Notes under the pieces: model-generated
Databases searched by the model: none
What the model was told of the DNA's origin: nothing
The model's input: only the letters and a program-made list of their open reading frames with translations
NCBI GenBank assembly: GCA_031763025.1
Contig: JASSKH010000021.1
Span: 9,357,358-9,421,357 of the forward strand
DNA from: Macrocystis pyrifera
Lineage: Eukaryota; Sar; Phaeophyceae; Laminariales; Laminariaceae
DNA: 64,000 nt
Direction of reading: 5' to 3'
Shown: positions 3,567 through 63,879 of the stretch, in pieces
How the letters are laid out: every line of letters begins with the position of its first letter
How positions within the stretch are numbered: position 1 is the stretch's first letter
Program-made: the position numbers and the translations under genes

Positions 3567-6500
3567 TCACAGCTCGGTTTTGACGTCGGCAAACGTGGCC
3601 AGTTCTTCGACGGCGTCTTCAAATGAGTCCAACGTCTCCTGTTGTACCTCCTGATAGGTCGGTCGTTGGACGCGTTGAAGCGGGAATATTAGAGGAGTCA
3701 GAACGAGGTGAGTGGTAGTTGTCGTCGTGATCAGCACCCTCACTATTGCGCCTACTGCAATGCAGGTCCACAACCTGTGCTTATGGCGCATGCCAGACAT
3801 ACATAGGAAGATATGAAACCTCTGAAACGCACACCAGATACTGTAAACCCACAGGTGACAGAGCTCAACGGACGCGCAGTTTTCAGAACCAACAGCACAG
3901 TACACAGGTGTTCGAGGCCAACTCACGTCGCAGAAGTCATCTCCCGTGTAAGCCCCCTCGCAGAGCTTGCCATCCAGCTTGTACAAGTTTCGTCCGTACA
4001 GCTCGATCATCTGGCCGCTGTAAAGGCGGAAAATGTACGTCGCTGGGGGGATGGCATTTGTCACTGCACCGTCAACAACGCGGGCCTCCGAGAGTCCAGG
4101 AAGTTCCTGGCACGACGGCGATGAAGCGGAGGAACCAGAGTACACATTCGGGAGGTCAGGTGTGTATGGCGAAGCTGCGTGAGACCAACTAACGTCCTCT
4201 CGTGAGGGACACTGTTTACGAGCAAGCATACGTATTGGAAACTAGTACAACTGGCTCCAACACAACAGTAAGATGACTTAGAAGAAAACAGGGATCTCAC
4301 GGACCTCCCATGCCGTCTGAGTGCTGAATGACCTCCCCCAGGAACATGATCAGCAACATTCGACCAACTGCGTGCGTCAGAATCGCAACGTTCACACCAC
4401 AATCTGACGCACCTGCTGCAAACGGCGGACTGCACTGGTCTCTCCCATCATCGCCCCGTTGACGCCGTCCATCCTCCAGTGAACACCGATGTGCGACCTT
4501 CCCAAGAGAACATTGGCGCTTACCTGATGTGTCGCAAAATAACAAAAACTAGGCCGGGTTGGCATGTGCGACGGGTACACGGGCAGTCATCATTGTAAAA
4601 ATAGCAACCATCCATTCCAAGATGGGTCCAGCGGCCCAATACATATGGCGGTTTCCCGAGTACGGGTCAGTCCGTCACCGTTTTCTACGGGTCGGTTGGG
4701 CATGACTAATATCCGTCGCGTGCAAGTGAGTGATTGGAAGACACACAGCGCACGAACATAGCATTTCCTTTTCAGATAATTTCTTGTTCCTTATCGTAGC
4801 ATTCACCACGCCTGGGTTCTACATTTTAGTGGCAGCTACCCCCAAAATGTGTTCGACGATATCCTTACAGTCAGTACCCCACCGAAGTGACTATGTTCAA
4901 AAGCAGTACCGCACGTACCTACGTCGAACACTCGAATTTTTGTATCGCCGGGTCAGACCGAGAACGGGGACAGTGCGCGACATCTTCAGGTCAAGAGAAA
5001 CGTACAAATCTCATTCTGCATGTTCTGCGTGGCATATGTACGAACTCAAGCGATGTTGCCCACCTTATTGAGTTCCCCTTCGTACGTGAGGCCGTCGATC
5101 TGAGTGTCGTTCTCGTCGGTGCATTTGCCCACAATCTCCCTCCCTGTCGGCACGTAGGGGATCCTGTCTGTTCCCTCGTCGTTGGAGATGACGGGGTTGG
5201 GGAAGCATCTCTGCCCCCTCTCGAACCCGAGGAAGGCCTGTTCAAAGAGAAAGGTGGGATAGGTTCCCAAACAGATTAGCCTGTTGGCGTGCTAGACCTT
5301 GGATTGCGGTGTCCGTCTAGCGTATCGTATTTCCAGCGCAAGGGAGAGGCTACACAAGAGGCGGTAGGCAAGGACGCGATTGCAGAAGTCGCATAGCCTG
5401 TGCCGTGCCACTGTTGAGAAGGTATGTTGTTGTAGCCTGCCACAAAAATACACCAACCTACGGTACACCACCAGTACAGAATGTGCAGAGAAATAGTGAG
5501 CCAAGCAAAAAATGCTAACGGCCTGCGCGCGGCGGCTTTGCTATCGAACACTTCGAAGTACATTGACAAAGGTTTGCTGATGCATTGTCGTTTTGACATG
5601 TGTACGTCCTGATTCCACAATGCGTTTATCACCTTAAGCGTTGTGATGTACGCCCCGACGTTAATGGCATGGCCGCTGGGGTACGCCGGGTGCGTCGGAG
5701 AGCCTTCGGCGACCGCCATCGGGAGCAAGAACGTCTTCTCGCGACCGCCATTCATAATAAGGTTGTGCTTCTCTACCCGGTCGAGCAAGTCCTGCGAGGG
5801 TCCATGAGTACCAAACACAAGAATTGAATGCGGTTGCGATTGGTCGATAAGGGGGCGTGCTATACCGTTCTTCCTTCAGTAAAATTGGTGCATGCTGTCG
5901 AAATATCTACAGAGCGAAACCAACTGAACCATGTGATGTTCAGACCACGGAGAATGACGGTCATTATATCCCAACATAGTTCGGCTGGATTAAAAGTAGG
6001 TCACGATTGCTTGGCGCACACCGACGGTGGCAACGATCACATGTTCAAAGATGCATTCCTCGCTGGCTTCTACTCTACCTCTCATGCATTGACGTCATGT
6101 TTGGGCGGTCGCGCTGTGTTCCGTCACTGGTAAAAATTAGTATCCGGAAAAGCTCACAATGGGAATACGAAAGCCGGTCAGCTTCTCACCGTGTTCTTCA
6201 GTATGGAGTCTGGCAACGGGGTATCGACGTTCCCCACGAGCGTGTTGTGGACCAGGCCGCCGTACGCCTCGGGCCTCAGCATTCGGTGCACTTGCCACTG
6301 TGTCGTATAGTTTGGAACGATCGTTTTGGTTCGGGAGGGTAGGGGAGGGGAGAGGTCAAATTCCGCCGAATCGTGAACACAGCAGGGGAAGGTACAACCG
6401 TAGTGGTCGGCTAGAAACATTCACAGGAGTTCAGGAGAGCGATCACGCAGAGGTGTACTTATCAGCACTCGTCCTTTGTGGACGAATGAGAGCTAAAGTG

Positions 6501-9500
6501 TACACCGCGTGTCTCAATGAACAGCATAACTTCGAGTGGTATGACCCGCGTGGAATAAATCGCGAGCAGCAACTATCGCTCGCACTCTATCTATGTCCTG
6601 TCGCTCAACCCAGATAGGCCGTTTTCGGTGCCCGTACGAAGTAGTTAACACGAAAAAGAGCCGACTCTCATCGGACAACATTGTCGTACTGTACACGTTG
6701 ACGAAGCCACAAATCATTTCAACCTGAATCTCCTGGTCCAGAGGAACACGGAATGAGAAGAAGACGCGCGCTGCTGCAGAGGCCGCAGCTCGTAGTTCTT
6801 GGGTTCTTCACGAGTAGGTGCTCGTTTCGGTCCCCAACAACTGGCATCGAGAATTTGCGTATGTATCACAAGATACCAGGCAACAATAGTACTCTAGGAA
6901 CATCATATTGTTCGAGGTAGGACTCTAGCGATATTCGGTAGGTGTCATATTTGAACAGGTGCGTCTTCAGTCCGAATTGGCTTGTCAATATTCGCTACCT
7001 CTTTCGTAGCACGCTGCAGCGAGGGTTGTCATGGTTATCGTTCGGTTCTAACGCACGCTGACTCTGTGAACCGGGGCCTCGTATGTCACATGAAGGACAC
7101 ACCTTAGCATACCACGCGTGGCGCGTGGAAGAGCTGGACGCTGCCATTGCGGTGAGGATGTGCGGCTCGCCGAAGGTGGCAAACCCCTGCTGCCGGCTGG
7201 ACACCGCATACGGGCCGACCGAGCCGCCAAGCGCACCTTGCACGAACAAGATCAGCGCCGCGCGGAAGGCTTCCGTGTAGAGGACATCCCTAAACGCGAT
7301 AGTGGCAAGGTCTCGGCCGTTTCGGATGAAGCGGGGGTTCTCCCTGTCGAACACAGTCTCCACATCGGAGCCACCATTCTGGCTCGAAAGAAACATTAGG
7401 ATAGCGGCGAGGGGAACACAGTATCAAACGTGGGCAAGCACGTCAATCAAAAAGGGCAACCGGAGAGACAGCAGAGGGAACCAGCAGGTGGTGATTCGAT
7501 TAGTAGCGTTCCATCAAAACACTTACACACAAGAGGAAAATGTGATATCAACCCTTGGTGTAAGCACGAGGGATAGTAAAGCCAGGCTTTCTCGTTCTGT
7601 GAGTGTGCGATTTGAGTATTCTAAACAGCTCGATCGCGACCCACATTGTTAGCTCTAATACATGAAATGTGCACAAATTGGTACCGCATTGGCTAAATTC
7701 AACGACTTTTCGTTAGCCAGAGCATACACTTTTCAGCGCAGACGAAAGGAGGACACCGTAACAACGTCTGGCATATATCTCGTATTTAGGGCCAACCAAA
7801 CGTCCGACAGCAGTTTAAACTCTATGGGCACACCTGAACATCGAGCCACGACCGGAATGACGTCATGTAGTCCATTCCTGGGAAGAGGGGGTCAGCTTTC
7901 GGCACCACGTCGATAGAGTCAATCTCGAAGTCCGACAACATGAACTGAGACACAATGGGACCCGTGGTCACACCCGGCCAGTCCGTTCGGAACAGATCAG
8001 TGACAGGGTCGATCCTTTCGATTTCATTGCCGGCGCTGTTTGTATCTTTAGTGGTAGGGATATTCAGTCCGCAGAACGCCTCGTTATTCTGAAGGTTCTC
8101 TGCTCGAGGGCCGAGGGTGGAGGGTCAAAAGCGCGGACATTAAGCAGCCAACGATACAGTGTTAGTACTTTGAAGAGGAGTATATGATTGTTCACGGGTC
8201 GAACGGCAAGTCGGCAATGAAACATTCTGCAATCGATATTTCTTTTGCCCACTTAGGACCAACGTTGTGCAGCGTACCTGCGGCACGCTGGATAAGATCG
8301 TTGGTGTCGAATTGAGAGAAAGGAATGTCCCTCGCCAGGGCCATCCAGTACACCTCGGTTTGCTGTGCGGCCTGCAGGTGCACGATATACCGTGAGAAGA
8401 AAAGGAATGGGAGCAAGCGGGTCAGAGGCACATCAAGGCGTGTAAACACAGAGATAGCTACTGCACAACGTGTACGGTATCTTGACAATTCTGCACTGTA
8501 TCACACACATTTCTCGATATATCTGGCGACATATTCCAACGTGACAACAGTACACCCGGTTTCTAGTGAGCATCGTACCAGCCGTTCGGAGAGGAGACTG
8601 TCCGGCGTGGCGATGAAGACATTGTCACTGTAGAGTCACCAGATTATACCAGTGTTGGCCACCCCATGGAGATTTCCGCATTCCATGTACGTACGTAAAC
8701 CAGGACAAGATAGCGGACGGAACAAAGAAGAAGCGGCGCAGTTTAACTCGTGGTTGCCAAAAATCAATCCTGGCTATTGATCAATCAGGCTTGGTTGCCA
8801 TGCCCCCGATAACGTATTGCTGCTTCATGGTGCCGAGATTAAGTTGCAGCAATACTGTCGCGAAATACACTGAACGTCTGGATCGAAGTATCTCGTTCAT
8901 CCCTCCAAACCGGAGCACGTTCCGTGCAGAGGGTTTCTTCCTATTGTAGTACGTTTCTTATACATCTACACTGATGAAGCTATCGTGGATAGAACATCTG
9001 TTCTTTTCATGGCGAAGGTGCAATGGCAGTATCGCCTCGTCAATGCGCTGAATCGAAGATCGGTAGTAGTGTAGTGGTTCAATTCACAACCATCTGACGA
9101 GAGTATGCCCGTTTTTTACTACTGTAAGCACACCCTTCTGCAATATGGTAGTACGTTAACTTCGGTAGTGTCGAGATATGTCTTCCTTGCCCCAACGAAA
9201 GGCCTTACAGAATACAGTTCGACCTGAGTTCTTGTGCAGTAGTATGAGTAGTAGACTGAAATAGATTTAGTACTAAGAAGACGAATTTGACCAATGCTAG
9301 CCTGATATTTAGAAGAGCAATATGAATTAATGAGTCATAGTTTGAAGGTAGTGTACCTCGTACGCCGCATACCACATCTATGTTTAAACGATATATCCAA
9401 CATGGACCAACTATCCTGCTTTTCGCTTCTTACGGGCCGTGTTCTGTGGGAGCATCCTTACGAACGCACACGCACCTGTCGGCACCATCGACCTGGTGTG

Positions 9501-12500
9501 CCGCGCCCCCCGAGCGGGTTGGTCAGCTTTGCGCCGTCTCGACCACCCCCAGAGGGCACGTCCTCGCACACGTTGATGTCGCTCGAGAACACACAGTCCA
9601 GTAGCCTCTGGTAGTTCCTGCTGTTCACCTTCATCAACAGAAACCGTCACGGAAGTGCCCAACAGCGAAAGACACCCTAGTGAGGGATCCCACAGGCAGG
9701 CTTTACTTTCCGTCTGTACTTCTCAACCTCGGCATGTCTTAGGACATGGGTGCATCTGCTTTATATCTGGGGCTTACCTCATTCGAGAATCTCCATACCT
9801 CACCCAAACACTAAAGTTGAGCAAAAAGGGAAACAGCGACCCGATGACGTATATTAGGTATACATAAAAAATCTTCTCAATCACAAACGGCGTTGCAACA
9901 AATTTGGGTGAGGACACAGTATACAAGAGTTTGGCTACCATTTGCCTCGTGCGCCTGCTGTAAAATGCGTCGCTTACGTATCCATGCCATCACCTAGAAC
10001 CACTCCAGTAGGTTTGTGACTGGTCACGTTGCTGTCGACGAGTTGCTTCCATCCCGAGCCTATGTGCATAGTAGCGGTCAACCCCCGCTAAAGCGCTAAA
10101 CCTAACGAGTGCAAACCCTCTTTTTCAATGTTACTAACAGGTACGAGTGACGCCCGTTACGCGCTCAATGTTCGGTCCACGGTTATGCATTAACTCGTGA
10201 GTATCGAGGGTGCTTGCTATTTTGAACGGTGGATGGCAACTTTTTAGTGCCGAAACGACGCTCCTTGAGAAGTTTATCGTACCAAACTCTGGAGAGAGCC
10301 CATTCCAAACGTAACACACGTTCATCGCGTCTGTGTAAACACCTCATATTACATCGTTGTGACCACTACTGTATGTTCAAGGTACGCAATACGCTGTGTC
10401 GGACCATGGGGCACGCTAGAACACCACACCATCAAAAATGACATCAGGTTACAGCAGATAACAGTTTTGTAGTTATTCAGTTTGTTTGTCTCAGCGTTTT
10501 CCCTCTGATTCGTTTTTTTCACGGTGTAGAAACGTTTCACGTGCTTGCAGCCTACCATCACCTTACAGGTCACACCAGGGACATTTCGTTTGGATTGCGA
10601 CTTTTCAGAGCACGATTACGCCTCTGATTCTTGTTGCCGCGTGACCCTTGTGTTTGAGAGTTTCCCGGCGATTGTCACCTGCGTTCGTTGCCAGCTTCGT
10701 ATTTTAACAACTGCCCCCTTACGAGGACCCACCCTTTCTGTAGCCATCTACTGTAGTATATACAACGTACGAAAAAATCATTGAGTCGAATTACGGCGGG
10801 CTTGTGAGGCCTGGCCAAGTGACAGAGCATGGAGCGCGAGTCTGGACTCTTTGTGCTATGCATTATCCTCCTGTTTTGAACGCACCCTAAGGCATATCAT
10901 ATGTCCATACACCACGTACCCTATACGATATGATCGAATGCAGGAATATCTGACAGTCTGTGTGTGTAGTATGGGCATAATTTGTGGCAACTGTTCGAGG
11001 ACATGCTGTACCCGATGCGTTACCAGCCTTCTGTTCGTTCCAACTGTAAGGACCGGGCGAGATAAAATAGGGTCCCGGATACCCGTGTAGTCGGCGTACA
11101 GGCGGGTGCACGGGTAATCGTCAAACGTGATGGCAAAAACAATGCAGTAACCGGGTTTGGTTCGCTTAGGTTGGGTGAGTTCTGTTGGGACGCGTTGTCG
11201 TGGAACAGGGCACGTGTTAGCGTGCACAGGAACTCGCGTTGCTGTCTTGCTATGTGATCGAGGCCATCAACTTTATTCGGACGCCTTTTTCGTGTTACCT
11301 GTCCGAATCTGTCGTGCGGGAGGGTCTTGTGATACTGCCCCGCGAGCATCAGCGCTTCGTCGTCCTCATCTCCATTACTGATATGGCACGTCGGTCCAAC
11401 CTTGAACTCGTCCTCGGCGATAGTCTGTCGTTTCGCGCGGGTCACCTCCGCTCGCGGCACCGGCTGTAACCGAAACGTAGCGAGGCAGCATGAAAGCGTC
11501 AAAACATTTAGTTATAGGCTGGTTGAACCGGCACGTGTAGGTTGATGCTGCTTTCAACTCATGTCTACAACATGTATGCCGCACATGTATTGCAGACATT
11601 TTGACAGCGAGTACGTAAAACCGTTTTTGTGTGGTATTTTATACGGACGAAATCCCCGATCTCACCCCTGGCGTTCTACATCGTTCTTTTATAGAGATGC
11701 CTGGTACACATATATACGGTACAGTGCAGTGCGCACAGCATAGGCCCTTCAATATCGCCGGTTGCTGTTAGGGTGCCGGTATTGATGGCTGGCTGACGCA
11801 GGCACTGTAAAGGGACCACTCTTACCGTACATCGCATACATTGATCTAAAAGTGTTCCTCCTGCACAAAAGGGAGCAATCGAAACATCACGGGAAAACAA
11901 TGTCGGAATGAAGCCTTTGTCTATGCTCAACCCGTTTTTCGAAGCCACTGTTTTATGCGTCAGTCCTGAGTAGTTTGCGCTGTCAAGGACTGACCAACGA
12001 ACCGATATTCGTTACATATTGCATACCAGAGCATGTAAACTACAAAGATGCCAGGTATATGTACACTGTGTTGGCTCGAGTACCTGGTTGATAGTAGCGT
12101 TTGCGACGATGGTCTTAATTCATTTACAATATTCAAGTTTTCACGAAACGTATGTCCTTCACAGTCAATATTGAATCCAGAATATATAAACGCTGATGAC
12201 AAGTGTGGATTGCACATAACCGAAAGTCTACTTTTAGCACACTCGAGACATCGGCGATCTTCGAAATCGTTATTGCGAGGGAGGATCCTCTCGCCTAAGT
12301 ACCAGTTTCGTTATATCCTCTCTGATTGTGCGAGCCTGCGCTGACATTGTTGTTCAATTGGTGTGATTGACATTAAAACTACCAGGTACGTTATACAGTT
12401 AGTGTGCAGGAAACACATCTACGGGAAAACTAACCAACACATTATTTCCATTCTAGCGTGGTGATTAGAGGGGAATTTATCCATTTCTGTGGGCGGACGA

Positions 12501-14753
12501 AAATGCATGAAAATGCCCGTCTTACCAACTGCCAGTTGTCACCTACAGGAGTACTACTGTGGATAAGCATAACGAAAAGGCATCACGGTGCATGAGTACT
12601 AAATGCTTAGAATTCCTTTGTATTTCGTATTTCCAACCAAAGTGGTACCAGCATATGATCACCGTTGTCAGCCCGTTGTAAACTTTGATCTGTCGGCCAC
12701 TTTGGAAAACAAACCTGCAACCAGAAGAGCACCCTCGCGGTCTCCGCCTGCATGCCTCTCTTACATCCACGGGGGACCCACTCACTGCTATTCCATTACT
12801 GCCCCAGGGCGAAGACTCTAGCTGACAAATATACGACGTTCACAAGCCGGATACTCACGTCTAAGAAATCCAGAGAATCTCGGACCCTGCACACGCTTCC
12901 ACTCAGCAGTGGGTGTCTTTGGGTTTCGTCGCGGCCGAGACACGGAGGAAACGCAGTCAGCAGAACTGTGAAGCCCAAAAAAGTCTGCAAATTGGAGAAA
13001 AATATTAAAAAGGGGATAAAGTCAAACGTGCACGATAGGCGACGAGGAGGAAATGGACATTAGGGCACACCGCGCTGGGCGGGTCGTTGAGCCAACAAGG
13101 TACATCGAAATTGAGGTTGGGGTACCCACAACCGAAAGGCAATCAAATACGCGACAATGCCGACCACACGACGCGGTCTGTGTGTTGGTTTCGCACTCGT
13201 CGTCGAACACCCGATGGCACCCGTATCGTTGGGTTCACCTGTATACGCCTGAAGGCATCGGTACCTCCGCTCGTTTAACACATCGGTGAGGTTGATCGCA
13301 GAGCACGTTTCGTTAACCCCAAACGGGGTGCTACTGCAGTTCTACATACACCAGTACGATAAATTCAAGGACGATGTGATGCTTGTGTTTGGTCCAGGTA
13401 GTGCTTGATTTGGTTACTAAGTAGTATGACATAGCAATGTACTTGTAATGCCGAATCAAAACTCTTTTTTTCCGCGGCTCTGGTGCCCCTCGAAATGGTT
13501 TGTGAAGACTAGTCGCTTAACATTGAGCCCTGCCGGCACCACCTGTACCCATCGTCAGTGTGGCGGACTCAAGAGCGCGAAGCTTTATTTTTGCACGAGA
13601 TCAAGGCCTTCAGCGGGAGCAGAGTGGGGAGCGGAGTTTGAACGAGCGTTTGGGATCGAAAACTCTCCCCGAACAAAATCGATAGCACGGACTACCTGGA
13701 CCCACTCAGACAACAGAAAACACAGTCAGACCCCAACTGATTCTAATGTGTATGTATCGTGTACCTCGTTTATCAACATATGCTAGTCCACACCACGGTA
13801 GCTCAAGCCGTAAACAAGTTGATCCTATCCACTCCTACCCCCATATATTCATGTGCCAACTATCGGAAGAAACTCGCGTCAGCATATACTGGTGCAGGCT
13901 TCGCGTTTGTAGTAAAGTATGAAACCACGTCGCCGAGTGGAGGACATCGTGGTACACTTGCTGCCTTCTGGCAAGGGTTTACCCCTGTCCCGTTGCGGAT
14001 GCCTTGGGCTTTCTGGCAGGGCTTGGGGCAGTAGGGGGTTATCCCGTGAGATTTGCGGAAGTTCTGGTACCAGGTTTATTATCAGCGGCGTGCCAGTTAG
14101 CAAAGAGGTGGACAGGTTTTAGAGGTACTGGGTAGCTACTGTGGCCCTCTCGTAGACCCAAAGCTAAATTACACATGACACAGAAAAAACTGGAGCAATC
14201 GAAATAGATTTGTGCTTTGAAGGATGTATCATATTTCGTTTAATGAAAATTCTAATGGTTCGGGCCACGGACTTATTTCGTCATTTTCCGTCCGCCCCCA
14301 AATTGTGTTTTCTTCATTTCTACACTAACCTGCACACCCCTGCACAAATCTGTTAATCAAGTGGACTTGGAGAAAGTTGTGTGGTATTTGTCTAGGGTTC
14401 TAAGCCAAACTCATTACGTAGCAACAACGCAAACAACGACAGCAGTGATTGGTGATCGAAATGGCCTTGTAAGCGAGCAAATGCACTAAAAGATCTCTCA
14501 TATGGAATGAAATGGAGATGGGTCATTAGGAGCAGCGCAGACGCCTGTTCCTTCAAGAACGTGTGCAGCTGGCGCCTAGCTAAAACTACTGATCAGAGGG
14601 GATACTAACCCTGTTCAACTATTCACAGTAGTTACTCGTTTGAATCGCTGGTGTATTAGTACATCGCGGTGGCGCGCAACCCTCACTCGGGCCTACGCTT
14701 GATCAGTTTGCCGATTACGGCGCAGCCACGCATCAAGCAGATCACACCTTCAT
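3567..14753 (-). CDS. Vanadium-dependent haloperoxidase A, 14 exons, frameshifted in exon 4
   Basis: Predicted secreted vanadate enzyme that oxidises halide with hydrogen peroxide. Exons 1-14 on the minus strand: 14748-14753, 12859-12984, 11299-11463, 9476-9628, 8579-8627, 8278-8371, 7834-8099, 7103-7378, 6190-6297, 5633-5791, 5064-5237, 4413-4523, 3927-4106, 3567-3650. Exon 1 encodes Met-Lys and exon 2 the signal-peptide core (LGFTVLLTAF). Exons 8/9 give WYAK and WQVHRMLRPEAYGG, exon 10 SPTHPAYPSGHA, exon 12 LLGRSHIGVHWRMDG; together these supply every expected vanadate ligand. Exon 4 has a run of six G where B and C have five. The frame is lost there, and a TGA falls at the start of exon 5, after about 150 residues. 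The exon 4 acceptor is AAG instead of CAG. All other exons are open, so this is either a recent pseudogene or a base error in the assembly. It is transcribed away from B. Confidence 0.85.
9476..9628 (-). other. Exon 4 of haloperoxidase A with +1 frameshift
   Basis: The exon is 153 bases, against 152 in B and 155 in C (C has one extra codon). The first 40 residues align well (NYQRLLDCVFSSDINVCEDV, then PSGGGRDGAKLTNPLGG). The frame then slips at the G6 run near 9505-9512, giving GRGTPGRWCRQ where B reads GTAHQVDGAD. The 3' splice site reads TGATGAAG, where B has TTGACACAG. Confidence 0.8.
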
Positions 14754-16301: not shown

Positions 16302-19300
16302 ATGAAGGTGAGCCCTGCTTGGGTATCTATGTATATACACGTAGCCGAAATGGGCGTAGCTCACAATTCAATATGCTCCCCAATGCAGACAGAAGCGAAA
16401 AAACACTGTGCACAGGTAGACGTAGCAGCGATAACAATACGTCTGCCCCCGGTGCATAGTAACCATGAGACACGCCTGAGCTGACAATGTCATCATGATG
16501 GTTCCCTTTTCCGGGCTTCAACGTAAGGGTAGTATTTTTTATATAAACGATCAGACAGGACGAGGTGTTGGTGATGTCGCTACCCATGGTTCTCGCCGGT
16601 CGCACGTTTGTGACGTACCACACAACCAGGCCTCGGTCACAAACAGACACGGGCAGGAGCGTACGAGTTGAAAATAAAAAAGTGGAGATAGGTTACAAAA
16701 GTCGGGGTTCGACGATGATGAAGACCCTTGGAGTCTCCACCGTTTTACACATTCCGAAAATAATCTTGATATGAATCCATGTCGATTGTTCCAGATATGA
16801 TGTATATATACTGTAGCTCCTGGTCTGCGTCCTCTCGCTATGGTAGCTACACATTACCTATACACTCCAAACCGGGTACTGTCTTCTCTGACTCAAGTTT
16901 GTGTGTATCCTGGCGCCAGCCTTGGTCTATACGATTAGGATAACAACCATCATGAAGGAGAAGACGATGGTGTCACCTCGTTTGATTCGATTGGTAAAGC
17001 ATAAGTAGACATCACCCTTCAACGAGTAGTCGGTCTGTAGTCGATAGAGCTATACCAAACAGAGCCTACAATACTACTATACGGCGGACCATATATACTG
17101 AGACCTACGGTACATACGAAAATCTATATATTTACCTTTTGTTACTAACAATATTTGGTCCTATTAGTATTAACTTTGGTCCCCCGTAATAGCTACTTTC
17201 GTCAAGTATTGGTATATGATTGGCAGTATCTTCCGTGTCTGGGGTCTTTCGATAATTGATCAATACGTACTATTTACTTGTATATATATGTGTGTCATAC
17301 TCTCACAGATAATGTTGTACCAGCAGCATTTATATAGGATTGTTGGAACAAGCGCTACAATCTCATTTTCGGGATACACACGGGACTATAAATATAGCTC
17401 GATAGCCGGACGAGCTGCAATAACTCTTGCGGCACACCTAAGGAAATCTGCAACGAGGGCGAAAGTGAAACACGATCGCCTCAACTATCGCATGTTGCGC
17501 TCTGTATAACAGTGGCTAAACCGTACCGGGCGCAGCAGGGTCTGCCAACACGAGATCCGACCGCCCTTTGGTATAACAGTTTCTGGTACGGCAACTGTGA
17601 TTTACCTAGAACAAAAGGTTGAAGGTTTCCACAAACTTCGTATTATCGTTAGCGTTTGTGCCTGTCTTGGATTCCGGGGGCGCTGTCCGTTCTGATCCCC
17701 CCTCTGTTCCGGCTTGACACCTTGATCATATGCCCACCTGCAGCCGCCTGCGCTTGGGGCCGCTGGGCTGACGCTAGGCACAGGTCATGCCGGCAGGACT
17801 GAGATCAATGGGATTCGTCAGCGAAAGCCCCGTGTGCGGCACCACAACTGCATGAAACAGCAATGCAACGGCCATATTTCAACCGTGCGCTATAAACATA
17901 TTCGAGTTGCTGCAGCAGGAGCGGTACCCTGAATCGTAGAGTCATACGCACACGTGATACCACACAGCACGCAGCCACAAAGCAGATACCTGTACCATTC
18001 CAGGGTAACACGACTTTGCGCGTACGTTAACAATTTTCCACTGATGTGCGGTGTTCGCGAACGTCAAGCAGTTTCTGGGAACTTCTACAGACTGGCTTGT
18101 GCAAAACAACTAAGTCACCACGGGAACTCGCGCAAAACAAATGCGTTTGATACGGCAACAGAGTAGGCGAAATCGGTATTTGATATTTTTTTAGCTGCTG
18201 CAGCACTGTTTCAACTTGATCCACAGTGTGGATGTTATCCCACCAACATGGCGGCCTGTTGGATATATGTATCGAGCGTACCATATCGATTGTATTTTAT
18301 ATTTAATCCCAACCTGGTGTTGCGTTGAGCTCTCTTCCGATATTGATGTGCCTTGTGTCCTCGTGACATATGCGCGCGTAAAATATCGATGCCCACGAAT
18401 TCTAGGCTGTCGTATGTACTGCTAGTATTGCTGTGGCTCGCAGGACACACTCGATAGCCCGCCCCCCACCGGCTCCCTCTAAACGTATACTTCGTACGTG
18501 TATGGTCGCGCTCGTGAGGCACCGCTGCGCATCGTACATACTGTTCTTTTTGTAGTTCGTGATAGGCAGACTTGCCCTGTGGCAACTGAGATCAAGTTCA
18601 CGTTAGAATCAAGCAAAGGGTGATACCGATACCTTTGAGAGATACGGCGATTACAGATACACGGGTGCCATCGGTGTCTGTTGACGCATCCTCAATCCAA
18701 CACAAACCGGCATGCTCTCATTTTTATGGATGTTGTCTTGCGCTTTTCAGCTGTATCCACATCTCGAAGCCACAGCGAATTTCGAGTATAGTTTCCCGCC
18801 CCACGACGCCCTCGACCTACCTGCGGTAACTTTCTATGTCTTCTCGTCGTGTGTTGCGGGCATTGTGCGTTTTCCCCTCTTTGATTTTTTTCTCCTGTCA
18901 TCAGATTTCCTTGGGCTTCACAGCTCTGCTGGCCGCATTTCCTCCCTGCCTAGGTCGCGAAGAAACCCAGACACACGAACTTCTCAGCGGAAGTGTCTGC
19001 AAGATCCGGGATTCTCTGGATTTCCTTAACGTGAGTGCTCAGGCCTATAAGCGTCCTATTACTATCAGCTAGAAACTTCGCACTACTTCGCTTTACAGTA
19101 TCGATGAGACCAGCGGTAAGGGGGTACCGTGAGGTTTCGAACGACTAGGGCAGGCGTCGCCCGTTCGCGTGCTGTTCTGGTTTCCGGCATGCTCAACAGA
19201 CTTCCCGAAGCATCGTAAGTTAAAAAGTGTCGCAGAGAAAGGGCGGACATCGTGAACAAATTACTCAATCTGCACACAAGTTCAAGAACTACCTGGTCTG

Positions 19301-22300
19301 CTTATTGAAGCACGACACGTAGTTGGAGGCATGTATACAGGGGTATATACCACGTAACAGCTGATGTTTCGTAGGGCGGCTGCAGGGTGAGTTTGTTTTC
19401 GTCCGCCTGTTAATCACACATCGGTGGCAACTGGTAAATAATAGGTAGAAGTCACAGCAAAGAGCAGTGGCTTCGACAAATTGCTCGACAATTACTACTC
19501 CTTCACAGCAGGAGCCTATATTTTGAAGTGTAACATGCCCATAGGATATACGAGCCGGGAATATTTTGAGTCGACTGTGGTGTAGAAGATGCGGCAAACT
19601 GTTGTCATCCCTCATGCTCTACAGACAGATCTAAACGACTCGGGTAGTAGTGGTCTCTTACCGTATGAATTGCGCACCGCGTTCACGTTTGGCTATCGCA
19701 ACTACTATATATTTATCTATAGGACCGTAAACTTCACATGTATGTACACTACGGTATGTATGCACAATGATGCACACACTGATGTTTGTTAACCTACTGT
19801 CCAAATGGAGGCCATACATTCGTAGTTTGCAAAATTTATGGGTATACGACTCTTCAGAAAAATGCCGGTTCACCCAGGCTACCAAAAAACACTGTTGACG
19901 CTTCGATGTTACACCATCACGTTTCGTGTACAGCCGGTGGCCCGCGCGGAGGTGACACGTAAGAACCGACTAGCCATCGCCCAGGACGAGTTCAAGGTTG
20001 GACCGACGTGCCACATTACCAATGGAGACGAGGAAAACGAGGCGCTGATGCTCGCTGGGCAGTACCACAAGACCCTTCCGCACGACAGATTCGGACAGGT
20101 AACACGGGATACGTGTTTGATAGACGGTGATGTGGCCAACCACCTTGCGGGCCAGCGAAACGAGTCGCTGTTAAGTGTACACAAATCCGCAGAAAGCCAA
20201 TCTATTCAGGGTGTTGTTATGTGGCGTCGACCTTAGTTGTTCTCGACGAAGGTGGACAAAGTACGAGGTATATCCTCGGGGGCTAGATGTGTAGACGGAA
20301 CATGAACGCTATCCATTGACATGAACTACTCTAACGATCTAGCCCCGAATAACGGTGCCAATCACTTTTATGGCTGAATTCTACTGTGCGGTGCCGTATG
20401 AACGTCCTCTGTTACATGTTCACACGGTGAGTTGTGGTTCTGTACCAACCGGTCGAAACCACGTGACACTGTACCGGGAACGCAGCAGGACCCAGAGATA
20501 GCAACCAAGTAAATGGTAAATTTGGCCCTGCCGGTCATGTACGGGCGGCGTGAGCGCCAAGCCCTACGCGTAGGCTATTGATGTACGCGTGCGGTACAAC
20601 TCCTCGCGTAGCCACTCAAACACCAATTTGTATCCTTCCCCAACCACGTAGTAAAACGTAAATTTGCATTAAATGTTTTTCCCTCTGAAATCCCGAAAGG
20701 GTTTGAAGGCCCGAAGGCCTCCTCGCCGTTTTTGATTCTACAACGATCGAGTGTGCGGTTCGATGTGCATGCAATTGTGTCGAGCCCTAATGCGTGCTAG
20801 TGCCGTTGCGGTTTATCGCAGCGCACCGCGTTGCAACTTTACACCGCGTGGTGAACGTCAATGGTTATGACAACGCTGTTCGCTGGTGCAAACGCGGATC
20901 ACGTTTACGGGTTGACACAGGTAAGCAGGAAGGACTACCAGAAGCTGCTAGACTGTGTTTTCACGAGCGACATCAACGTGTGCGAGGACGTTCCCTCTGG
21001 GGGGGGTCGAGACGGCGCGAAGCTCACCAACCCACTCGGGGGCACGGCACACCAGGTCGATGGGGCCGACAGGTGCAAATGCTGTGGGAATAGAGAATAT
21101 ATGACACATGATGAGCAGAAATGAAGAGGGTAGGCTTGTTGGTTGATTGTTGGTGCACTGTGCAGACGAACCATTGACTAGCGAGTCACACAAAACAGAT
21201 CTTCGCGTTCCTCTCAGGCCGGCCTTGTCAGTGCGCACCTTCTGCGTAGTTTTCCGATAATGTATATATATGTGTGTGTGCTAATATATACAATTTAGAC
21301 GTGCTTCGATTGGTCCATGATGTCACGATTGAACTACCCCGGGCTGTGGTTGTGGGAGAAAAGAGACATGCGACCGTCAAGATTCAGAAAAACCGCTACG
21401 TACAAAGGTAGTGCAATACCGTTTGTATGGTTGTCATCACATACTTCGATGGGCCAAGCCCGTCTTACACACCTTCCACCTGACCCAATATACTCCTTCC
21501 AGGGTAGTTGGAACACTCTCAGCACAAAAATGAATGATGAGATAAAGCGATCGTGACGTTCAATAGTGTGCGCGACGGCATTGTTGTGAAACCTTCCTAG
21601 GAAAAAAGCGAGTGACGCAGTGTTACAGAGGACCTGACAACCCTGCCGGGATGGTTCATTGACCAGATCAGATTTTGACAACCACCACATAATCCTCTCG
21701 TGCGTGGTTTTCGTGTGGTTCCGTGTTTTTTCCCGTACGTTCCCGTTGGTCTTTCCGATGCGGAACGCTACATGCACTGGCCGACAATGGTATAAACTGG
21801 TGATTCTACAGCGACAATGTCTTCATCGACACGCCGGACAGTCTGCTCTCCGAACGGCTGGTGAGATGCTGACAAGAGACCAAATATACTGGTTTCGTGT
21901 CGGATGATGTCGCCAGATATTTATGCTTTATGTTTGTTTGATTGTCCTACTGACGCGTTGCAGGACTACTACACGTTGTACAGTATCTCAAGAATGTTTT
22001 TTGCGTGCACGGATGTGTACCGGACTCACGTGCTCCCATGCTGTTCTTGTATTGCAATACGACGTGATCATGCAGGCCGCACAGCAAACCGAGGTGTACT
22101 GGATGGCTCTGGCGAGGGACATACCTTTCTCGCAATTCGCTACCAACGACCTCATTCAGCTCGCCGCAGGTACCGCATGGTGACTTGTATGCGGTCGGAC
22201 CTGTAAAAGGCCGAAACGGATCCCAAGCGCAGTGCAGCCAGTTGTCGACTTGCCGTTTTAAAAACCCTTACATATCACACGCACTTCTTGAAAGCACTTC

Positions 22301-25300
22301 GTTAACCCTTGGAAGCCCCGGAACATAATAACCCGTGTCAGCTCCGCGCGTCCCCCCCACCGATGCTTGAATCTCGAGCAGAGAACCTTCAGGACAATGA
22401 TGCGTTCTGCGGGCTGAACATCCCCCGCACCGTGGTTAAAGGAAGCGACCCTGAAAAAACAGTAATCGACCCTGTCACTGATCTATTCCGCACCGACTGG
22501 CCGGGTGTGACCACTGGTCCCATTGTGTCCCAGTTCATTTTGTCGAACTTCGAGATTGATTCTATTGCGGTGGAGCCCAAGGCTAAGCCTCTTTTCCCAG
22601 AGAAGGACTACATGACATCCTTCCAGCCGTGGCTCGATGTGCAGGTGCGCGTTCACTTTTCCAGCCGCCTCGGCTTGTTTTGCTGGCGGTGCCTACAAGC
22701 CCTCTACGCCAAGTGATCACAATGTTCTCATTTTGTCTGCCCTAACCAGCGTGTACGTTTGTGTACGAGTGTTTGTGGAGTGGGAGGCAATTCATTTCCA
22801 GTATGTGCACTTTCCACGCTTTGTTTAGATCCCCCTATGTGAAGCATGTCAAGTCGAGTACAACCACTCAAGACACACCTGCCCAAAAAGGAAGGTCCCG
22901 GACATACTCCGAACAAATGATTGCTATTATTACTTTTCATTCGCATGCGTGTAGGTTATTTGAACTGTTTTTGTCGTCTACTGGTTCGCCCCCTCTGCTG
23001 TCTCTTCGGCGCTGCGTTGTCATCCTGTGCTTGGCCTCCATCTTATTATTTTTCCGTCGCTGCTGTGATATTTGTTTCGCTCTCGAGCCAGAACGGTGCT
23101 TCCGACGTGGAGACTGTGTTCGACAAGGCGAACCCCCGCTTCATTCGAAATGGCCGAGACCTCGCCACTATCGCCTTCAGGGACGTCCTCTACACGGAGG
23201 CCTTCCGTGCCGCTCTTATCCTGTTCACGCAAGGTGCGCTCGGTGGTTCCGTCGGGCCCTACACTGACGCCAGACGCCAACAGGGGTTCGCTACCTTCGG
23301 CGAGCCGCACATCTTGACCGCCATGGCCGCGTCCAGCTCGTCTACGCGACATGCGTGGTATGCTAAGGTGCGCGCTTCATCGCGGAAACAAATACCTCAA
23401 ATCGAGGAATATGTCTGCCTAGTAAACAAAATACATACGTTGACGCCGAATAACGCGTAGTACTAGACAAAAAACACACGTCGAACACAGTATTCGCTAC
23501 AGACACGGCTCCGGAATTGAGGGAACCAACGAATAGCACTGAAATACCATACATCGTATAAGTTATACTGTTCGTATCAGGGTACCTGGTTTATGCCTAG
23601 GTCTCAGGACTGTGCATCGGCCTTATTTCTCGGAGGAAGTTGTTGAGGAAGGACTAGAGTTCCCCATTCAACGAGCCTCATATCCAATGGATGCTGCCTC
23701 TTGTGTGACGCTTTTTGTCTACCCGGGCGTACGTTGGCTATGCTAGAATATGTTCCTGCAGGTATGACCACGATTATGCCGCCGAAACAAAAAGCAGGCG
23801 GAAAACATCACGATGAAGGTCACCACTAACACGTCCACGAAATTTGAGGAATTGCAATCTGGCTGGGAGGAAGGACGTGTAGAATGAACAGTCGGTTATT
23901 ATATATTTCGGTCATCATGACCGGGACCACACCCCTCCAGAGAGTGCAGCACCTTGACGCGCGCTTTTAAGCCTGAAATTCCTGTCCAGTTCAAAGAATA
24001 CGACTCAACTTGCCATCCACACCTCTGTGTGCTGGCTTCTCCCTGACCACTACGTTTTTGGCTTACCCTGTCTTGTTCGCGGTTGAGCTGACGTGACCTC
24101 CTTCAATGTTTGCCCGACCGGAATCAAATTGGTCTCGTAAACGATGCTACAAAAACAATAGTGGCAAGTACACCGCGTGCTGAGGCCCGAGGCGTACGGT
24201 GGCCTGGTGCACAACACACTAATGGGGAACGTCAATACTCCGCTACCAGACTCTCTCCTCAAGAACAAGGTGAGCAGGTGGCAGTATTTCAATATTACCG
24301 CTAGGAACGAGACCGAAATCTGAGTATTGCGAGCATCTGATCGAAGTACAATTGTGAAAACGAAAAGACCAATATAGACGAAATACTGCAGAAGCTAACC
24401 ATATACACAGGCTCGTATCCGTGGTCGTAAAGTATAATGGGAATACGAGCGGTTTATCGAAGCCCGCTTCGAAAACACTTGCTGAATGCTTGTATTCCGT
24501 ACTCGTCTACCCTCACAGGACCTGCTCGACCGAGTGGAGGAGCACAACCAGCTCATGAACAACGGCGGCGAAAAGACGTTCCTTCTCCCCATGGCGGTCG
24601 CCGAGGGCTCTCCGACGCACCCAGCGTACCCCAGCGGCCATGCCATCAACGTCGGTGCTTACATCACATCGCTTAAGGTGCCACACATGTTGTGAAATAC
24701 GGACTACCCAGTAGGTTCCGGTCCTGCGCGTTTGATTTCTTTGCTCCAGCAACCTTGGCACTTTAGTCTGTACTGGCGATACCGTGTGCAACCTGCCTGC
24801 GTTTGTGAACCTTCCGACTGTGGCACAACACAGGATAGCTAGTCATTTCATCCACGTCCATCCCTACGGCCTCCTGGTGAGTCGTTCCGTTACATACAGT
24901 AGGTGTTACCATACGCTAGACGGACGTTCCTATCCTGTCAGGGACGGTTTGAGGTTCGACCCTTTATTAATCTTTCTCACCTTTCTCTCCGGGCAGGCAT
25001 TCCTCGGATTCGAAATGGGGCAGAGGTGTTTCCCCAACCCCGTTATCTCGAACGACGAGGGGACAGAGAGGATCCCCTACGAGCCGACAGGAAGGGAGAT
25101 TGTGGGAAGATGCACTGACGAAAACGGCAGACAGGTGGACGGCCTCACGTATGAAGGGGAGCTTAACAAGGTGGGCAACATCACGTGTGTTAATGGACGC
25201 CGTGAGGATGTTAAGGGTTACAGATGACCTAATGAGGGCGCCCACGGAATAATTTCTTTGTCCGACCAACCGATGTATAAACGGCTGTGCTCGACGTGCA

Positions 25301-26598
25301 TGGGTTAGGTAGCTGTTAGAAACTCACATATTTTTCTGGGGCACTGGCCGTACAGATATCGTTCCCGTCCACTCAAGAAGTGTATAGTGTAGAGGCTTCG
25401 AACCATGACGTGAAAACCGTACCGTGGAATATATATATATAGTTTTTTCAGAACTAAATCTCATGTTCGGGCTCGTTGCGTCTCCCATAGTTTTGTTTTT
25501 TTCACGCGAGCGACGAGAGACACTCGCGGCCAACCCGTGGAAACATCTATGAGCGTTGGTTGTACTCGAGAGAAAGTGATACTTAGCAGAAATACTCACT
25601 CTCTAGGCAGCGTGTTGTCGAGTTGATGACTACGCCCGCACTCACCCTTCTCCCGGGCTTTCCTTGATAATTTGCGGGACACTTCAGGTGAGCGCCAACG
25701 TTCTCCTTGGAAGGTCACACATCGGTGTTCACTGGAGGATGGACGGCGTTAACGGAGCGGTGATGGGAGAGACTGGCGCCATTCGACGCTTGCAGCAGGT
25801 GCGTCCGGCAGTGTTCAGGTCGCTGCGGGTTCTTCAACTCGCAGTTGGTCGCATGTTGTTCATTATGTCTTTCGGGCAGGCTGTCCAGCACACAGACGGG
25901 ACGGGAGATTTCCGAGGTCTCCCCTTGATTGTGCAGTTTCGGCATGTTTAAGCTCTTGACATTCCTTTTGAATATATTTATTCGATTATCCCTTCGAAAC
26001 AACCACCGCACCTGCTCAATGTTTGCAATCGCCCACCCCATATTTACCCTTATACCAGGAGCTTCCTGGTCTTGCGGAGGCGCGCGTTCGTGATACCAAG
26101 AAGTGGTTTGATATCCCCGAAGCGACGTACAACTTCCGCCTGTACAGCGGCAAGATGATTGAACTGTACGGCAGGAACCTGTACAGGCTGGATGGCAAGC
26201 TCTGTGAGGGACCCTTCACCGGCGACGACTTCTGTCAGGTTAGCAAGGGTTCCGTCGATGTATACTGCTTGGAGACAGTATGCCAACTTTATCCCCTGTA
26301 CGTGTGTTGCTCTCTGTTCACTACCGGATTGCTGTTGTTGTCGCAATGAAGGTCTTCACGTGTGTAGCAGGTGTTTTCAGCCACTGGGCGGATTCAGTCT
26401 GTGTCTATGACTACTGCTTGCCACATCGAACATGCAGCAATGTCAACCGACGAATATTGTATCATCCTGTCGTCAACCACCGTCTGGCCTGTTTGAACGT
26501 GCCCAACGAATCACCAGGAAATCCAAGAGAACTCTTCCAACCGGTTTGAAGACCTTGTCGAGGAACATGCTACTTTCTCGATCCACGCCAAGATGTGA
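16302..26598 (+). CDS. Vanadium-dependent haloperoxidase B, 14 exons, complete (647 aa)
   Basis: Intact member of the cluster; predicted secreted enzyme using vanadate and hydrogen peroxide to oxidise bromide or iodide. Exons: 16302-16307, 18905-19030, 19934-20098, 20921-21072, 21812-21860, 22076-22169, 22382-22644, 23092-23367, 24162-24269, 24519-24677, 24997-25170, 25688-25798, 26059-26238, 26518-26598. Joined, they give 648 codons including TGA. Residues 1-19 form a signal peptide (core LGFTALLAAF). Residues 45-99 carry the N-terminal NGDE...LPHD block. Predicted vanadate ligands are K377 and R385 (WYAK/WQVHRVLRPE), S452-G453-H454 (HPAYPSGH), and R533 and H539 (GRSHIGVH). W374 and H447 match further active-site residues. 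Spacing from K to R (8) and R to S (67) equals that recalled for the Ascophyllum enzyme. Whether it prefers bromide or iodide cannot be read from the sequence. Confidence 0.92.
17077..17192. mobile_element. Short MITE copy in intron 1 of gene B
   Basis: About 116 bases with inverted ends related to CTATTACGGGGGTCCATAG. The left end is diverged (CTATACGGCGGACC) and the right end reads GGTCCCCCGTAATAG. The interior has the family's AATCTATATATTTACC and TTACTAACAATATTTGGTCC blocks. Confidence 0.7.
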
Positions 26599-34048: not shown

Positions 34049-34216
34049 TCAGAACCTTGACCAAGATAATACATTTATATTATAAGCATATCTAAAACTA
34101 AGATGAGTGCTTTGGCGATGATCGTATTTGATAAAAGGCTAAAAACCAGTATTCAAGGCACATTTCACGACTTTCGACCCCCTTGTCGTGAAACACACAC
34201 TGCAGTCATCAATCAA

Positions 34217-34327
34217 CTATTACGGGGGTCCATAGTTAACGGGACCAATTTTTGTCAGTAAAAATAGGTAAATATATAGGTTTTAATGAATACCATAGGT
34301 CCTGTTAACTATGAACCCCCGTAATAG
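34217..34327. mobile_element. Short MITE copy, 111 bp, opposite orientation
   Basis: It starts CTATTACGGGGGTCCATAGT and ends GAACCCCCGTAATAG. The interior is inverted relative to the neighbouring copy at 33941, only 170 bases away. Confidence 0.78.
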
Positions 34328-37293: not shown

Positions 37294-54763
<17,470 letters not shown>

Positions 54764-56531
54764 TAGAACGCACGTAGAACCCACCTCGTTTGGACTGCCG
54801 GTTCTGGAAGTGCAAAGTTGGTATAAAAGCGTGAACGAACAGATCACCTGACGCGCCGAGTCCATGATGTGTTTGGACCAAGCCCTGGTGTGGGGGGTGT
54901 ACTCGATAAGAGAGATGTACTCGATCTCGTGCGTGGCCGTAGTCGTATGACCGTGTGTGTGGCGGGGAATTCTAGGTCCTGCGTTTTCGTAAGCTCAGAG
55001 CCACTCGGACCAGATAATGCCCTGTTTCGTTGCAGCCTCGATACGTTTGGTTTTCTGTTCGCTCGGTGATTGCAACTGTCACTACATTGCTCGTGCTGCT
55101 GCGGCAATGTTCATCAAGCCAAATCAATGTTGACTGTCGCACCAAGCAACTCGCTCGGGTGTCCCATACGCGGTAATAAAAGTGGGTGTAGCTGCCTACT
55201 GAAAGAAGGCTTGGCAAAATGCTTGGTGCCACGATCAGTGAACAAGCTGTGCTGCATCGTGGCGTTGATTATTGTGTAACACATTGGTGCCGGGCTTCAT
55301 TAGATTGGGTAGTGCCGTATCGGCCAGGCGCACTATACAACATTTATTTACTATATTTAAGCACAGGAGATCGGTTATATTTGCATGAGTCATAGGAGTA
55401 TCCTGTTCAAGCGTATGTGGGCTTGGCGAGAGGCGGAGAGGCATGGCATACCTTCGAGGGCACTACACGCGCAAAGGCGACCCGATGACGTCATGATATT
55501 GAGTGATAGTGCCTCGTTATAAACTCGTCCTGTAGATGGAGCTCAGCCAAGCGTCTCAGTGGAGTAGCATCCACGTGCTCATTGTATGGGCGCGGAACCA
55601 ATACGACGTATCTAGTTTGAGTACGAATCCAGTTCTACGTTGTATGTTTTGATTAAAAAACAAAAAGGCCATGGTACATTGTACGAGGCGGTCGGGCTTG
55701 TCATTCATAAAGCTCTAGTCATCCTGCATCCTGTGAAGGAGACCGCTGGTAGAACCCTCTTCACTACCTTGATTTGTGGCAAGGTTACGTCTCGTGGTGA
55801 GCTGCGGCGGCCATAATTATATTTGTGTGTTGGCGTCCTCGCTTTCGCATGGCTTTTTCGCATTGCGCGCCGCCTGGAATATATGCTGTTGTTTTCCCTA
55901 CTGTTACATTAACCTACCCCGAACACCCAATAAGGAAGTGGTGAATGCGAACGCCAGATGACGTAGCGAACGCGAACGCCAGTTGATATTAACATACGGT
56001 GGCGACAAAAGCGTGTCGATAAACGTCTCTATTAGTATCACGCGACGCGATAGGACTATCACCCATGACGTTCGCTCGGTACGTACTAGCGTGAATAAAA
56101 TCAGCGATTTATCCACGATGGTCTCGTACGCACTGAAAACATAGGCTCCTCTTGTTTTTTCGCGTTCGAGTACATCGACCAATGTTTCACCAGATAATAG
56201 AAAAATGAACCTCCTGGAAAAATGCCGTGTTCAACGGACACGAAATATGTTCGTTCCCGGCGATCATCAGGGCACATTGCCCAGTCTCGATATCCTGCGA
56301 TACAGACGTTCGTGAGTAGGCCATAGTACTCTTCACCCAACCGAACGCGCCATACAGAAATAGCCAGCTATATTCCGCTTTGTTTTGACAGCTTAGGGGT
56401 CTGCACCCACCTATTAGTGCCAACTACGGTTGAGATACATGTGGGATTATCTTGAGGCTGCTATTTTGAGGTTTTCTATATTATAAAAAATGGATGCCTC
56501 TCCATTGTTCATCGTTCGCTCATCCCGAGTA
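54764..56531. other. Intergenic stretch downstream of gene C
   Basis: No gene is recognised. An inverted partial copy of the 57-58 kb tandem unit lies at 54892-54954. A short direct repeat (GCGAACGCCAG) occurs twice near 55945-55985. Confidence 0.4.
54892..54954 (-). repeat. Inverted partial copy of the 57-58 kb tandem unit
   Basis: The reverse complement closely matches the end of the unit near 57447-57513, including GGTCATACGACTACGGCC and ATCGAGTACATCTCTC. It lies 129 bases after the stop codon of gene C and may be within its 3'-UTR. Confidence 0.7.
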
Positions 56532-58046
56532 GCCATGTCATGACCTCCAGTAGAATTGCAGCGAACGCACTTGTGGAAACACACGCTATCTGGCAGCGAC
56601 TAGGTTGAGCAGTTCCGCCTGAGCCACGCAAAGTCTGTACAGTGTAGGCTTCCCCTCTCATAGCCCCCCCCCCCCCCCCCCCCCGTTATATCTTATATGA
56701 GGGTTGGGTTAGCGTCGGTTGGCAACGTCACTGTAAAACATGCCGCTCACTACGTGAGCTAGGCGTCCAGGGTACCGTTTGTTTTGTTGGCGGTCGCTCA
56801 CAGCTGGTCGTCGAGTTAGATCAGGTTCGGAAGTTGCCATGTCATGGCCACCAGTATCATTGCAGCGAACGCAGTTGTGAAAACACACCCTATCTGGCAG
56901 CGACTAGGTTAAGCAGCTCCGCCTGAGCCACGCAAAGTCTGGACAGTGTGGGTTCCCCCTCAAATCCCCCCCCCCATTATATATGTTGTATATATGGGTT
57001 GGATTGACGTCGGTTGGCAACGACACTGTAAAACATGCCGCTCACTACGTGAGCTAGAGCTAGACATCCAGGTTACCGTTTTATTTTTTATTTTTTGGCT
57101 GTCGCCCACAGCTAGTTGTCGAGTTAGATCATTTGTGCAAAATAAAGAACCTTTACTCTGTACAAGGGAATTGACCGTATCAAGTGTTCAAGGCAAGGCA
57201 CCCAAGAGGCAGTTACATAGTACTCCCATTGCTGTCTCTGGAAGTGGCTACACCTGAAATAAAAATTACTCATTGAGGCTGTCATCCATATGCACGTCCG
57301 CCTCACAAGCGTTTCTTAGTAGGATGCAGCTCACCCTTCATGCGACTCGCCGGACACCTCACGGCGCTTCGCGCTTGGTGCAAGCAATGTGTGCCTGGTC
57401 AGTGAAAACTCGACATGCTCCGTCCCGGCATTGTAGGGATGCGAGGGTCTATGGTCATACGACTACGGCCATGCATGATATCGAGTACATCTCTCCTATC
57501 GAGTACACCTCCCCCCCCTCCGTTACACATTATATAAGGGTAAGGTTGGCGTCCGTTGGCAACGACACTGTAAAATATGCCCTCACTACGTGAGCTAGAC
57601 ATCCAGGGTACCGTTTGTTTTGTTGGCGGTTGCCCACAGCTGGTCGTCGAGTAATATCATTTGTGCGAGGTAAAGAACCTTTTCTCTGCACAAAGGAATT
57701 GATCGTATTACGTAGTGTTCAAGGTAAGGCATCCAAGAGTCAGTTACATAGTACTCCTATTGCTGTCTCTAGAAGTGGCTACGCCGGAAATTAAACTAAC
57801 TCATTGAAACTGTCATCCATATGCAAGTCCGCCTCGCAAGCGGTTCTTAGTAGGATGCAGCACACCCTTCATGCGACTCGCCGGACACCTCACGGCGCTT
57901 CGCGCTTGGTGCAAGCAATAATTACCGGGTCGGTGAGAACCCGTCATGCGCCGTCCCGGCATTGTAGAGATGCGGGGGTCTATGGTCATACGACTACGGT
58001 CATGCATGAGATTGAGTACATCTCTCATAGCACGCCTCTAAACTAA
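56532..58046 (+). repeat. Composite tandem repeat block
   Basis: Two staggered duplications overlap. A 304-base unit beginning GCCATGTCATG occurs at 56532-56835 and again from 56836. A longer unit of about 0.53 kb occurs at about 56971-57513 and again at 57523-58046. Shared landmarks include GGTTGGCAACGACACTGTAA, CTCACTACGTGAGCTAG and ATGCGACTCGCCGGACACCT. Poly-C runs lie between subunits. Open frames inside the block owe their similarity to the duplication and look non-coding. Confidence 0.8.
56664..56684 (+). repeat. Homopolymer of 21 C
   Basis: An uninterrupted C run at the join between subunits of the tandem block. Shorter C runs sit at the equivalent points of the next units, near 56969 and 57509. 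Confidence 0.9.
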
Positions 58047-63131: not shown

Positions 63132-63879
63132 CTAGTCTACAGCTCGGTGAGGAGCGAGAGCATGTGCGCGTTCTTCGGCTAGACCATCGAAGGGGTCGAA
63201 GGTGCCCTTCACGACCGGCTGAACCGTCCATGAACGGAACGAGGGAAGAAAAAGGACCCAAATCAACAAACACGGGAATGGGGGTATGGATGTTAGGCAC
63301 ATGCAAATATGGTTAAAACGATACGGTACACATGCATGTGCTCGTCATGCCAGCAAGGCTGTGACCCAAGGATGTTATTCGTCTTCATCGAATGAGGAGA
63401 CTCTCGTGACAAAGCAATAAAACTCATTAATATGTCGTGCTTCACAGAGAACAACATTGCAGAGGCACTACAACACAACTGGCAAGGGCGAACAAAGCGT
63501 AACCGCCAATTAACCTCCAGCTTGATGGAGTGCGACCGTTCTAGGCGGCCACGCAGCTACAAAATCTACGTATGTCGTGAGCGGGGACAAGGTGGTGTCC
63601 ACTACAGTAGCAGGTACCGTATCAAGGAGAACCAACAAATATCGAAGACGTCGTGGCCACACATCCGCGCACCCCCCCCAGCTATTCTTCCGCCTGTACT
63701 CACGTCACAATAATCGTCCCCGGTGTATGGCCCTTTGCGGAGCGGCTTGCCGAGCCCGTACAGGTTCGCACCGTGGAGGTGGATCTGCGTGCCGTTGAGA
63801 AGGCGGAACGAGTACGTTGCCGCGGGAATGTCGTTGTTGTTTCGTTTCCCAGGCAAGCCTCTGGGAGCCTCGGTAGTTC
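63132..63879 (-). CDS. Vanadium-dependent haloperoxidase D, 3' end only (exons 13-14), frameshifted
   Basis: Exon 13 at 63704-63879 encodes the C-terminal strand region (ATYSFRLLNGTQIHLHGANL, then GPYTGDDYCD) with a GTGAGT donor. Exon 14 at 63132-63218 encodes GTFDPFDGLAEERAHAL and ends in TAG. Both match exons 13-14 of genes A-C. Exon 13 is 176 bases, against 180 in the others. It starts in phase (ELPRLPEA) but changes frame before NDIPAATYSF, so one deletion breaks it. The catalytic exons would lie beyond 64000 on the minus strand. It converges on gene C. Confidence 0.75.

Follow-up and report, generated by a model that had tools for sequence, protein, structure and literature searches.

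Gene content and exon structure

The window analysed here is a stretch of 64,000 nucleotides of the kelp Macrocystis pyrifera (C202:9357358-9421357, C202 being the label of its contig). It holds three vanadium bromoperoxidase (vBPO) genes, each with multiple exons: A lies on the minus strand, B and C on the plus strand. It also holds the 3' end of a further copy, D, on the minus strand. Exons e2 to e12 were modelled with a custom spliced-alignment script; a coding exon further upstream, e1, was picked out because the copies conserve it and was then located in A, B and C. All three also have a last exon, e13, which makes 13 exons recovered per gene.

In A (minus strand) the hydrophobic leader exon e1 lies at 12859-12984 (e1-peptide profile, E 6e-26; CAG acceptor, GTGAGT donor) and is followed by e2 (11299-11463), e3 (9476-9628), e4-e8 (8579-8627, 8278-8371, 7834-8099, 7103-7378 and 6190-6297), e9-e12 (5633-5791, 5064-5237, 4413-4523 and 3927-4106) and e13 (3567-3650, stop included, ending KTEL), the latter obtained by a last-exon search; e4-e13 together span 3567-8627. 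Compared with B, a G run in the e3 of A is longer by one G, hence a frameshift.

B (plus strand) displays the same arrangement: hydrophobic leader exon e1 at 18905-19030 (same profile, E 6.6e-26), e2-e7 at 19934-20098, 20921-21072, 21812-21860, 22076-22169, 22382-22644 and 23092-23367, e8-e12 at 24162-24269, 24519-24677, 24997-25170, 25688-25798 and 26059-26238, and e13, ending HAKM, at 26518-26598 (e2-e13 span 19934-26598). For C (plus strand), which starts at or before 37996, the hydrophobic leader exon is at 37996-38127 (E 2e-24; ACAG acceptor, GTGAGT donor), e2-e7 at 47845-48006, 49279-49433, 49972-50020, 50214-50307, 50494-50735 and 51268-51543, e8-e12 at 52136-52243, 52641-52799, 53232-53405, 53739-53849 and 54138-54317, and e13, ending HIEL, at 54683-54763 (e2-e13 span 47845-54763). 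Finally e12 of D (63712-63879, minus strand), detected by blastn of reference exons, belongs to a vBPO pseudogene of which this end alone is in the window; in window-frame coordinates the pseudogene extends to about 70502.

An earlier note on this DNA had credited A, B and C with 14 exons, identical intron phases, near-equal exon lengths and introns of widely varying length. The spliced alignments bear out the architecture: the phases of e2-e12 are common to the three genes (0,2,0,1,0,0,0,0,0,0,0), the exon junctions fall at GT/AG sites, and eight exons have equal lengths in all three (e4 49, e5 94, e7 276, e8 108, e9 159, e10 174, e11 111 and e12 180 nt), e2, e3 and e6 measuring respectively 165/165/162, 153/152/155 and 266/263/242 nt in A/B/C. 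Intron lengths do vary widely, the e1-e2 intron being 903 bases long in B vs 9717 in C. A total of 14 exons is plausible, 13 being recovered in each gene; however the exon carrying the ATG was not found, since none of the ATG-to-donor candidates upstream of e1, compared in 10 copies, was conserved.

The window also contains several repeats. A ~100-base dispersed element occurs in direct and inverted copies at 17075-17182, 33940-34328, 38870-38981 and 47000-47371, several of them in or around the long first intron of C, and other vBPO copies seem to have similar blocks upstream. A CT dinucleotide repeat of 87 copies (51087-51259) sits just upstream of e7 of C, and imperfect tandem repeats with spacings of ~300 and ~530 bases occupy 56528-58013, between C and D.

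Family identity

In vBPOs, conserved Lys/Arg, Ser-Gly-His and Arg/His residues bind the vanadate, and bromide or iodide is oxidised with H2O2 to a hypohalous species. The patterns with which A-D were scanned, and which we take to be those of the vanadate site, are KWQVHRxLRPEA (Lys/Arg), PSGH and GRSxxGVHWR: A, B and C possess all three. Other rows of the scan without a motif correspond to copies with an exon left out, or to limits of the pattern, as for 1qi9 and 5111k. Three conserved catalytic motifs are also what the literature describes for the vanadium haloperoxidase family (PMC13198595).

The assignment to vanadium haloperoxidases, already made in the earlier note, is thus borne out by these motifs and by homology to a solved algal vBPO over the full length: residues 1-569 of the 596 in the spliced C model (e2-e13) align to residues 31-593 of Ascophyllum nodosum VBPO2 (PDB 5aa6, E 2.8e-240), the exon pieces of the window matching the same enzyme with E 5.7e-174. 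The Pfam PAP2 model gives C 21.5 and B 18.9 bits, both below its gathering cut-off of 27.2. Since the decisive evidence is the full-length match to solved vBPOs, this shortfall is no defining failure; it may be a limit of the Pfam model. A Pfam search of 10 stretches of the window (3 single exons of C and 7 long non-vBPO ORFs) returned a family for none.

Copies elsewhere in the genome

Searched against the genome, exon e7 of C matches at least 124 places: 18 on C202, 14 on C223, 85 on C195, 2 on C147, 2 on C218, 1 on C198 and 2 overlapping ones on C190. Those on C202 span 8.73-9.49 Mb, a cluster of 0.76 Mb. With exon e9 there are 110 rows: C202 accounts for 17 loci, a frameshift splitting one of them into two rows and D being absent, C223 for 14 and C195 for 73 rows, while 5 lie elsewhere. 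The window is a slice of a vBPO cluster with 18 matching loci on its contig.

The e7 matches on C195 (~5.1-9.0 and 13.8-13.9 Mb) are more divergent, at most 53%. By analogy with Saccharina japonica, for which 17 vBPO and 59 iodoperoxidase (vIPO) genes in tandem clusters are reported (PMC4421812), this group is probably a likelier vIPO set than the window cluster. This bears on whether the cluster members could themselves be iodoperoxidases rather than bromoperoxidases. Both types are present in kelps (PMC4421812), and the residues that set the choice of halide are described as largely unknown (PMC13198595); yet the closest solved relative of the window genes is VBPO2, and the divergent C195 group is the better candidate for the vIPOs, so that we hold an iodoperoxidase identity of the cluster to be improbable.

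State of the gene copies

Twenty-four copies were read—A to D, 14 others on C202 and 6 of the 14 on C223—so that the set is confined to these two contigs. Lesions were scored in e2-e12 against the closest reference exons. No net frameshift was detected in 14 of the 24, B and C among them; six (A, 9128k, 8881k, 8938k, 8849k and 5111k) have one net frameshifting indel in an otherwise open e2-e12; and in three (9165k, 8721k and 7650k) an exon is absent or incomplete in the stretch retrieved. The last one, D, is frameshifted in many places, its e7 match contains an in-frame stop, and the PSGH of the other copies is PSVH: it is a pseudogene, a decayed remnant. The earlier count of four genes has thus to be qualified, for the four matches are present but D is dead and A is frame-broken in this assembly. 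Similarly, the exons of B and C join without net frameshift, as expected from that note, whereas the extra G of A breaks the frame in e3. By their sequence, B and C look intact and functional.

As to A, it may be a recent pseudogene or the victim of an assembly error. We are evenly divided on whether it is a working gene whose one-base insertion comes from the assembly. Single indels recur in six of the 24 copies and several of them sit in short homopolymers, a pattern that one expects from a long-read assembly; A and 8881k are affected at the same G run, and the dN/dS of 0.12 between A and B also speaks for a working gene. On the other hand the indel of 9128k, at least one of the six, lies outside any homopolymer, and a recent loss within a large redundant family would look identical. 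The G insertions of A e3 (9476-9628) and 8881k e3 are of +1 and +2 respectively; this shared run would be either a slippage hot spot or a weak point of the assembly.

Age and relationships of the copies

The earlier note took the cluster for a young one and A and B for an inverted pair. For codon analyses we omitted D entirely, e3 of A and 8881k, e9 of 9128k and 7634k, e2 of 9165k, e8 of 8938k, e2, e3 and e12 of 8721k, e7 of 8849k, e6 of 7850k and 5111k, and e4 of 7650k; e6 of 7850k and e9 of 7634k were left out for their split models, though they have no net frameshift. The dS/dN values (NG86) are 0.688/0.081 for A-B, 0.800/0.143 for A-C and 0.772/0.129 for B-C. The low dS among neighbours that marks a young tandem cluster is thus absent from A, B and C (0.69-0.80). 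It is found about 0.45 Mb away on the same contig, at 8.82-8.92 Mb (C202:8815702-8926676), where seven near-identical copies, all on the minus strand, are arrayed head-to-tail with a spacing of 15-17 kb and differ by dS 0.00-0.075 (all 21 pairs); likewise three C223 copies differ by dS 0.031-0.048. On these values the divergence of A, B and C is old in relative terms, dS without a rate or other species giving no absolute date. Their dN/dS, 0.12-0.18, indicates that the A-C lineages are under purifying selection.

Phylogeny supports local duplication: in three trees A, B and C belong to one group of 15 members, all on the same contig (support 91/99, 96/94 and 98/98). An exclusive A+B+C group is nevertheless rejected (AU test, p 0.0019). 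A and B form with 9128k and 9116k, which lie 229-257 kb from them, a clade supported at 100/99 in the three trees, and C is outside it. Support inside this clade is weak: 80/51 (for B+9128k) and 80/64 in one tree, and no resolution in another. D, on a long degraded branch, groups with 9480k, the copy at 9.48 Mb (100/99).

Could A, B and C still stem from a young local triplication, A and B being an inverted pair? The copy nearest to A by dN is B (0.081), in inverted orientation, and A+B alone is not rejected by the AU test (p 0.276). These points lose their weight when one considers that B is as close to 9128k (dN 0.079, dS 0.639) as to A, that the dS among A-C is far above that of the young array (0.69-0.80 vs 0.00-0.075), and that A+B+C is rejected. 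We regard such a triplication as most improbable. The orientation of A and B is indeed inverted; their clade has four members, and within it the AU test neither establishes nor rejects A+B alone. Seen against the whole 0.76-Mb cluster, duplication is thus local, but the window copies are old lineages and no young triplet.

The last exon

Exon e13, of ~26 codons, follows a phase-0 donor. Of the 23 copies whose e12 could be followed to its end, 22 have GT[AG]AGT as this donor and B has GTTAGC. We found e13 in 21 of the 24 copies, all except D, 8721k and 9480k; one filter required endings of the kind listed here, and a looser pattern gave the same 21. These endings are HTEL (13 copies), HTKL (3, all on C223), HAEL (2), KTEL (A), HIEL (C) and HAKM (B): 17 of the 21 have a KDEL-like [HK]xEL end, which A and C fit and B does not.

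In six independent pairs the pN/pS of e13 is 0.40, with 53 of 132 changes synonymous vs 20.9% expected (p 3.8e-7). When all pairs of 13 representative copies are taken, pN/pS amounts to 0.57 in the exon as a whole and to 0.41 in its last four codons. Constraint is stronger in the core, where eight blocks give pN 0.08-0.15 vs pS 0.41-0.51. It follows that e13 behaves as a coding exon, with a faster evolution than that of the core.

The human carboxylesterases CES1 and CES2 have HIEL and HTEL as their ER-retrieval tails (PMC11845761), and e1 is hydrophobic in A, B and C. One might then propose that the vBPOs of the cluster are held in the ER or secretory pathway by their e13 tail rather than simply exported to the apoplast, that the HAKM and HTKL copies are exported, and that duplication diversified the site of halogenation. 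We put this forward tentatively, as a possibility that has the published data rather against it: an apoplastic location, at least in part, is described for brown algal haloperoxidases (PMC2866472), and in a set of ~70 new vHPO sequences from macroalgae the proteins with a signal peptide are mostly predicted to be secreted, only a few being possibly in the ER (PMC13198595). The crystal chains of A. nodosum (5aa6, 1qi9) end before such a tail, which fits its absence as well as its removal. In one literature search for an ER tail on haloperoxidases none of the papers listed had KDEL or HDEL; another matched a paper on human carboxylesterase. The conserved e13 and its ER-retrieval-like [HK]xEL tail are possibly a new point.

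Discussion

Altogether, we consider it very probable that four members of a multi-copy, clustered kelp vBPO family lie in the window, and that among them A-C are old and selected lineages, B and C look functional, A is frame-broken and D is dead, the young amplification having taken place elsewhere. From family knowledge, the enzymes of the window are predicted to bind vanadate and to oxidise bromide or iodide with H2O2; their hydrophobic N-terminal exon would be consistent with entry into the secretory pathway. The tree and the map suggest repeated local duplication, accompanied by changes of orientation, as the origin of the copies. A, B and C diverged long ago and under purifying selection; the recent amplification is that of the seven-copy array of the same contig and of at least three near-identical copies of another (C223).

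This corrects the picture of a recent triplication: a single kelp cluster brings together old, selected vBPO lineages and a recently amplified array, and allows the study of both old divergence and new growth in copy number. Besides, if the tail works as an ER-retrieval signal, purely apoplastic models of bromination and iodine handling in kelps would need a second compartment; the variants of the tail offer a direct test of this reading.

Comparison with known systems places the locus as follows. For M. pyrifera 38 V-HPO genes are reported; S. japonica has 88, arranged in tandem clusters (PMC11765636). Since the tandem expansion of these genes in kelps is published (PMC11765636, PMC4421812), the expansion as such is already known, and the present cluster resembles the vBPO and vIPO clusters of S. 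japonica, i.e. large tandem clusters of the same family on few chromosomes or scaffolds (PMC4421812, PMC11765636). Against the 38 V-HPO genes given for M. pyrifera (PMC11765636), we count 31-33 vBPO-type loci plus 73-85 places on C195, these being exon matches and not verified genes. At the protein level, A. nodosum VBPO2 (5aa6) aligns with the kelp enzymes from e2 to the end of e12 and shares the three active-site motifs; its crystal chain stops 4 residues past the last aligned residue, so that the kelp e13 tail has no counterpart in it. VBPO1 of A. nodosum (PDB 1qi9) is likewise a full-length homologue (E 2.1e-129), but more distant than VBPO2, and its chain stops one residue past the last aligned one.
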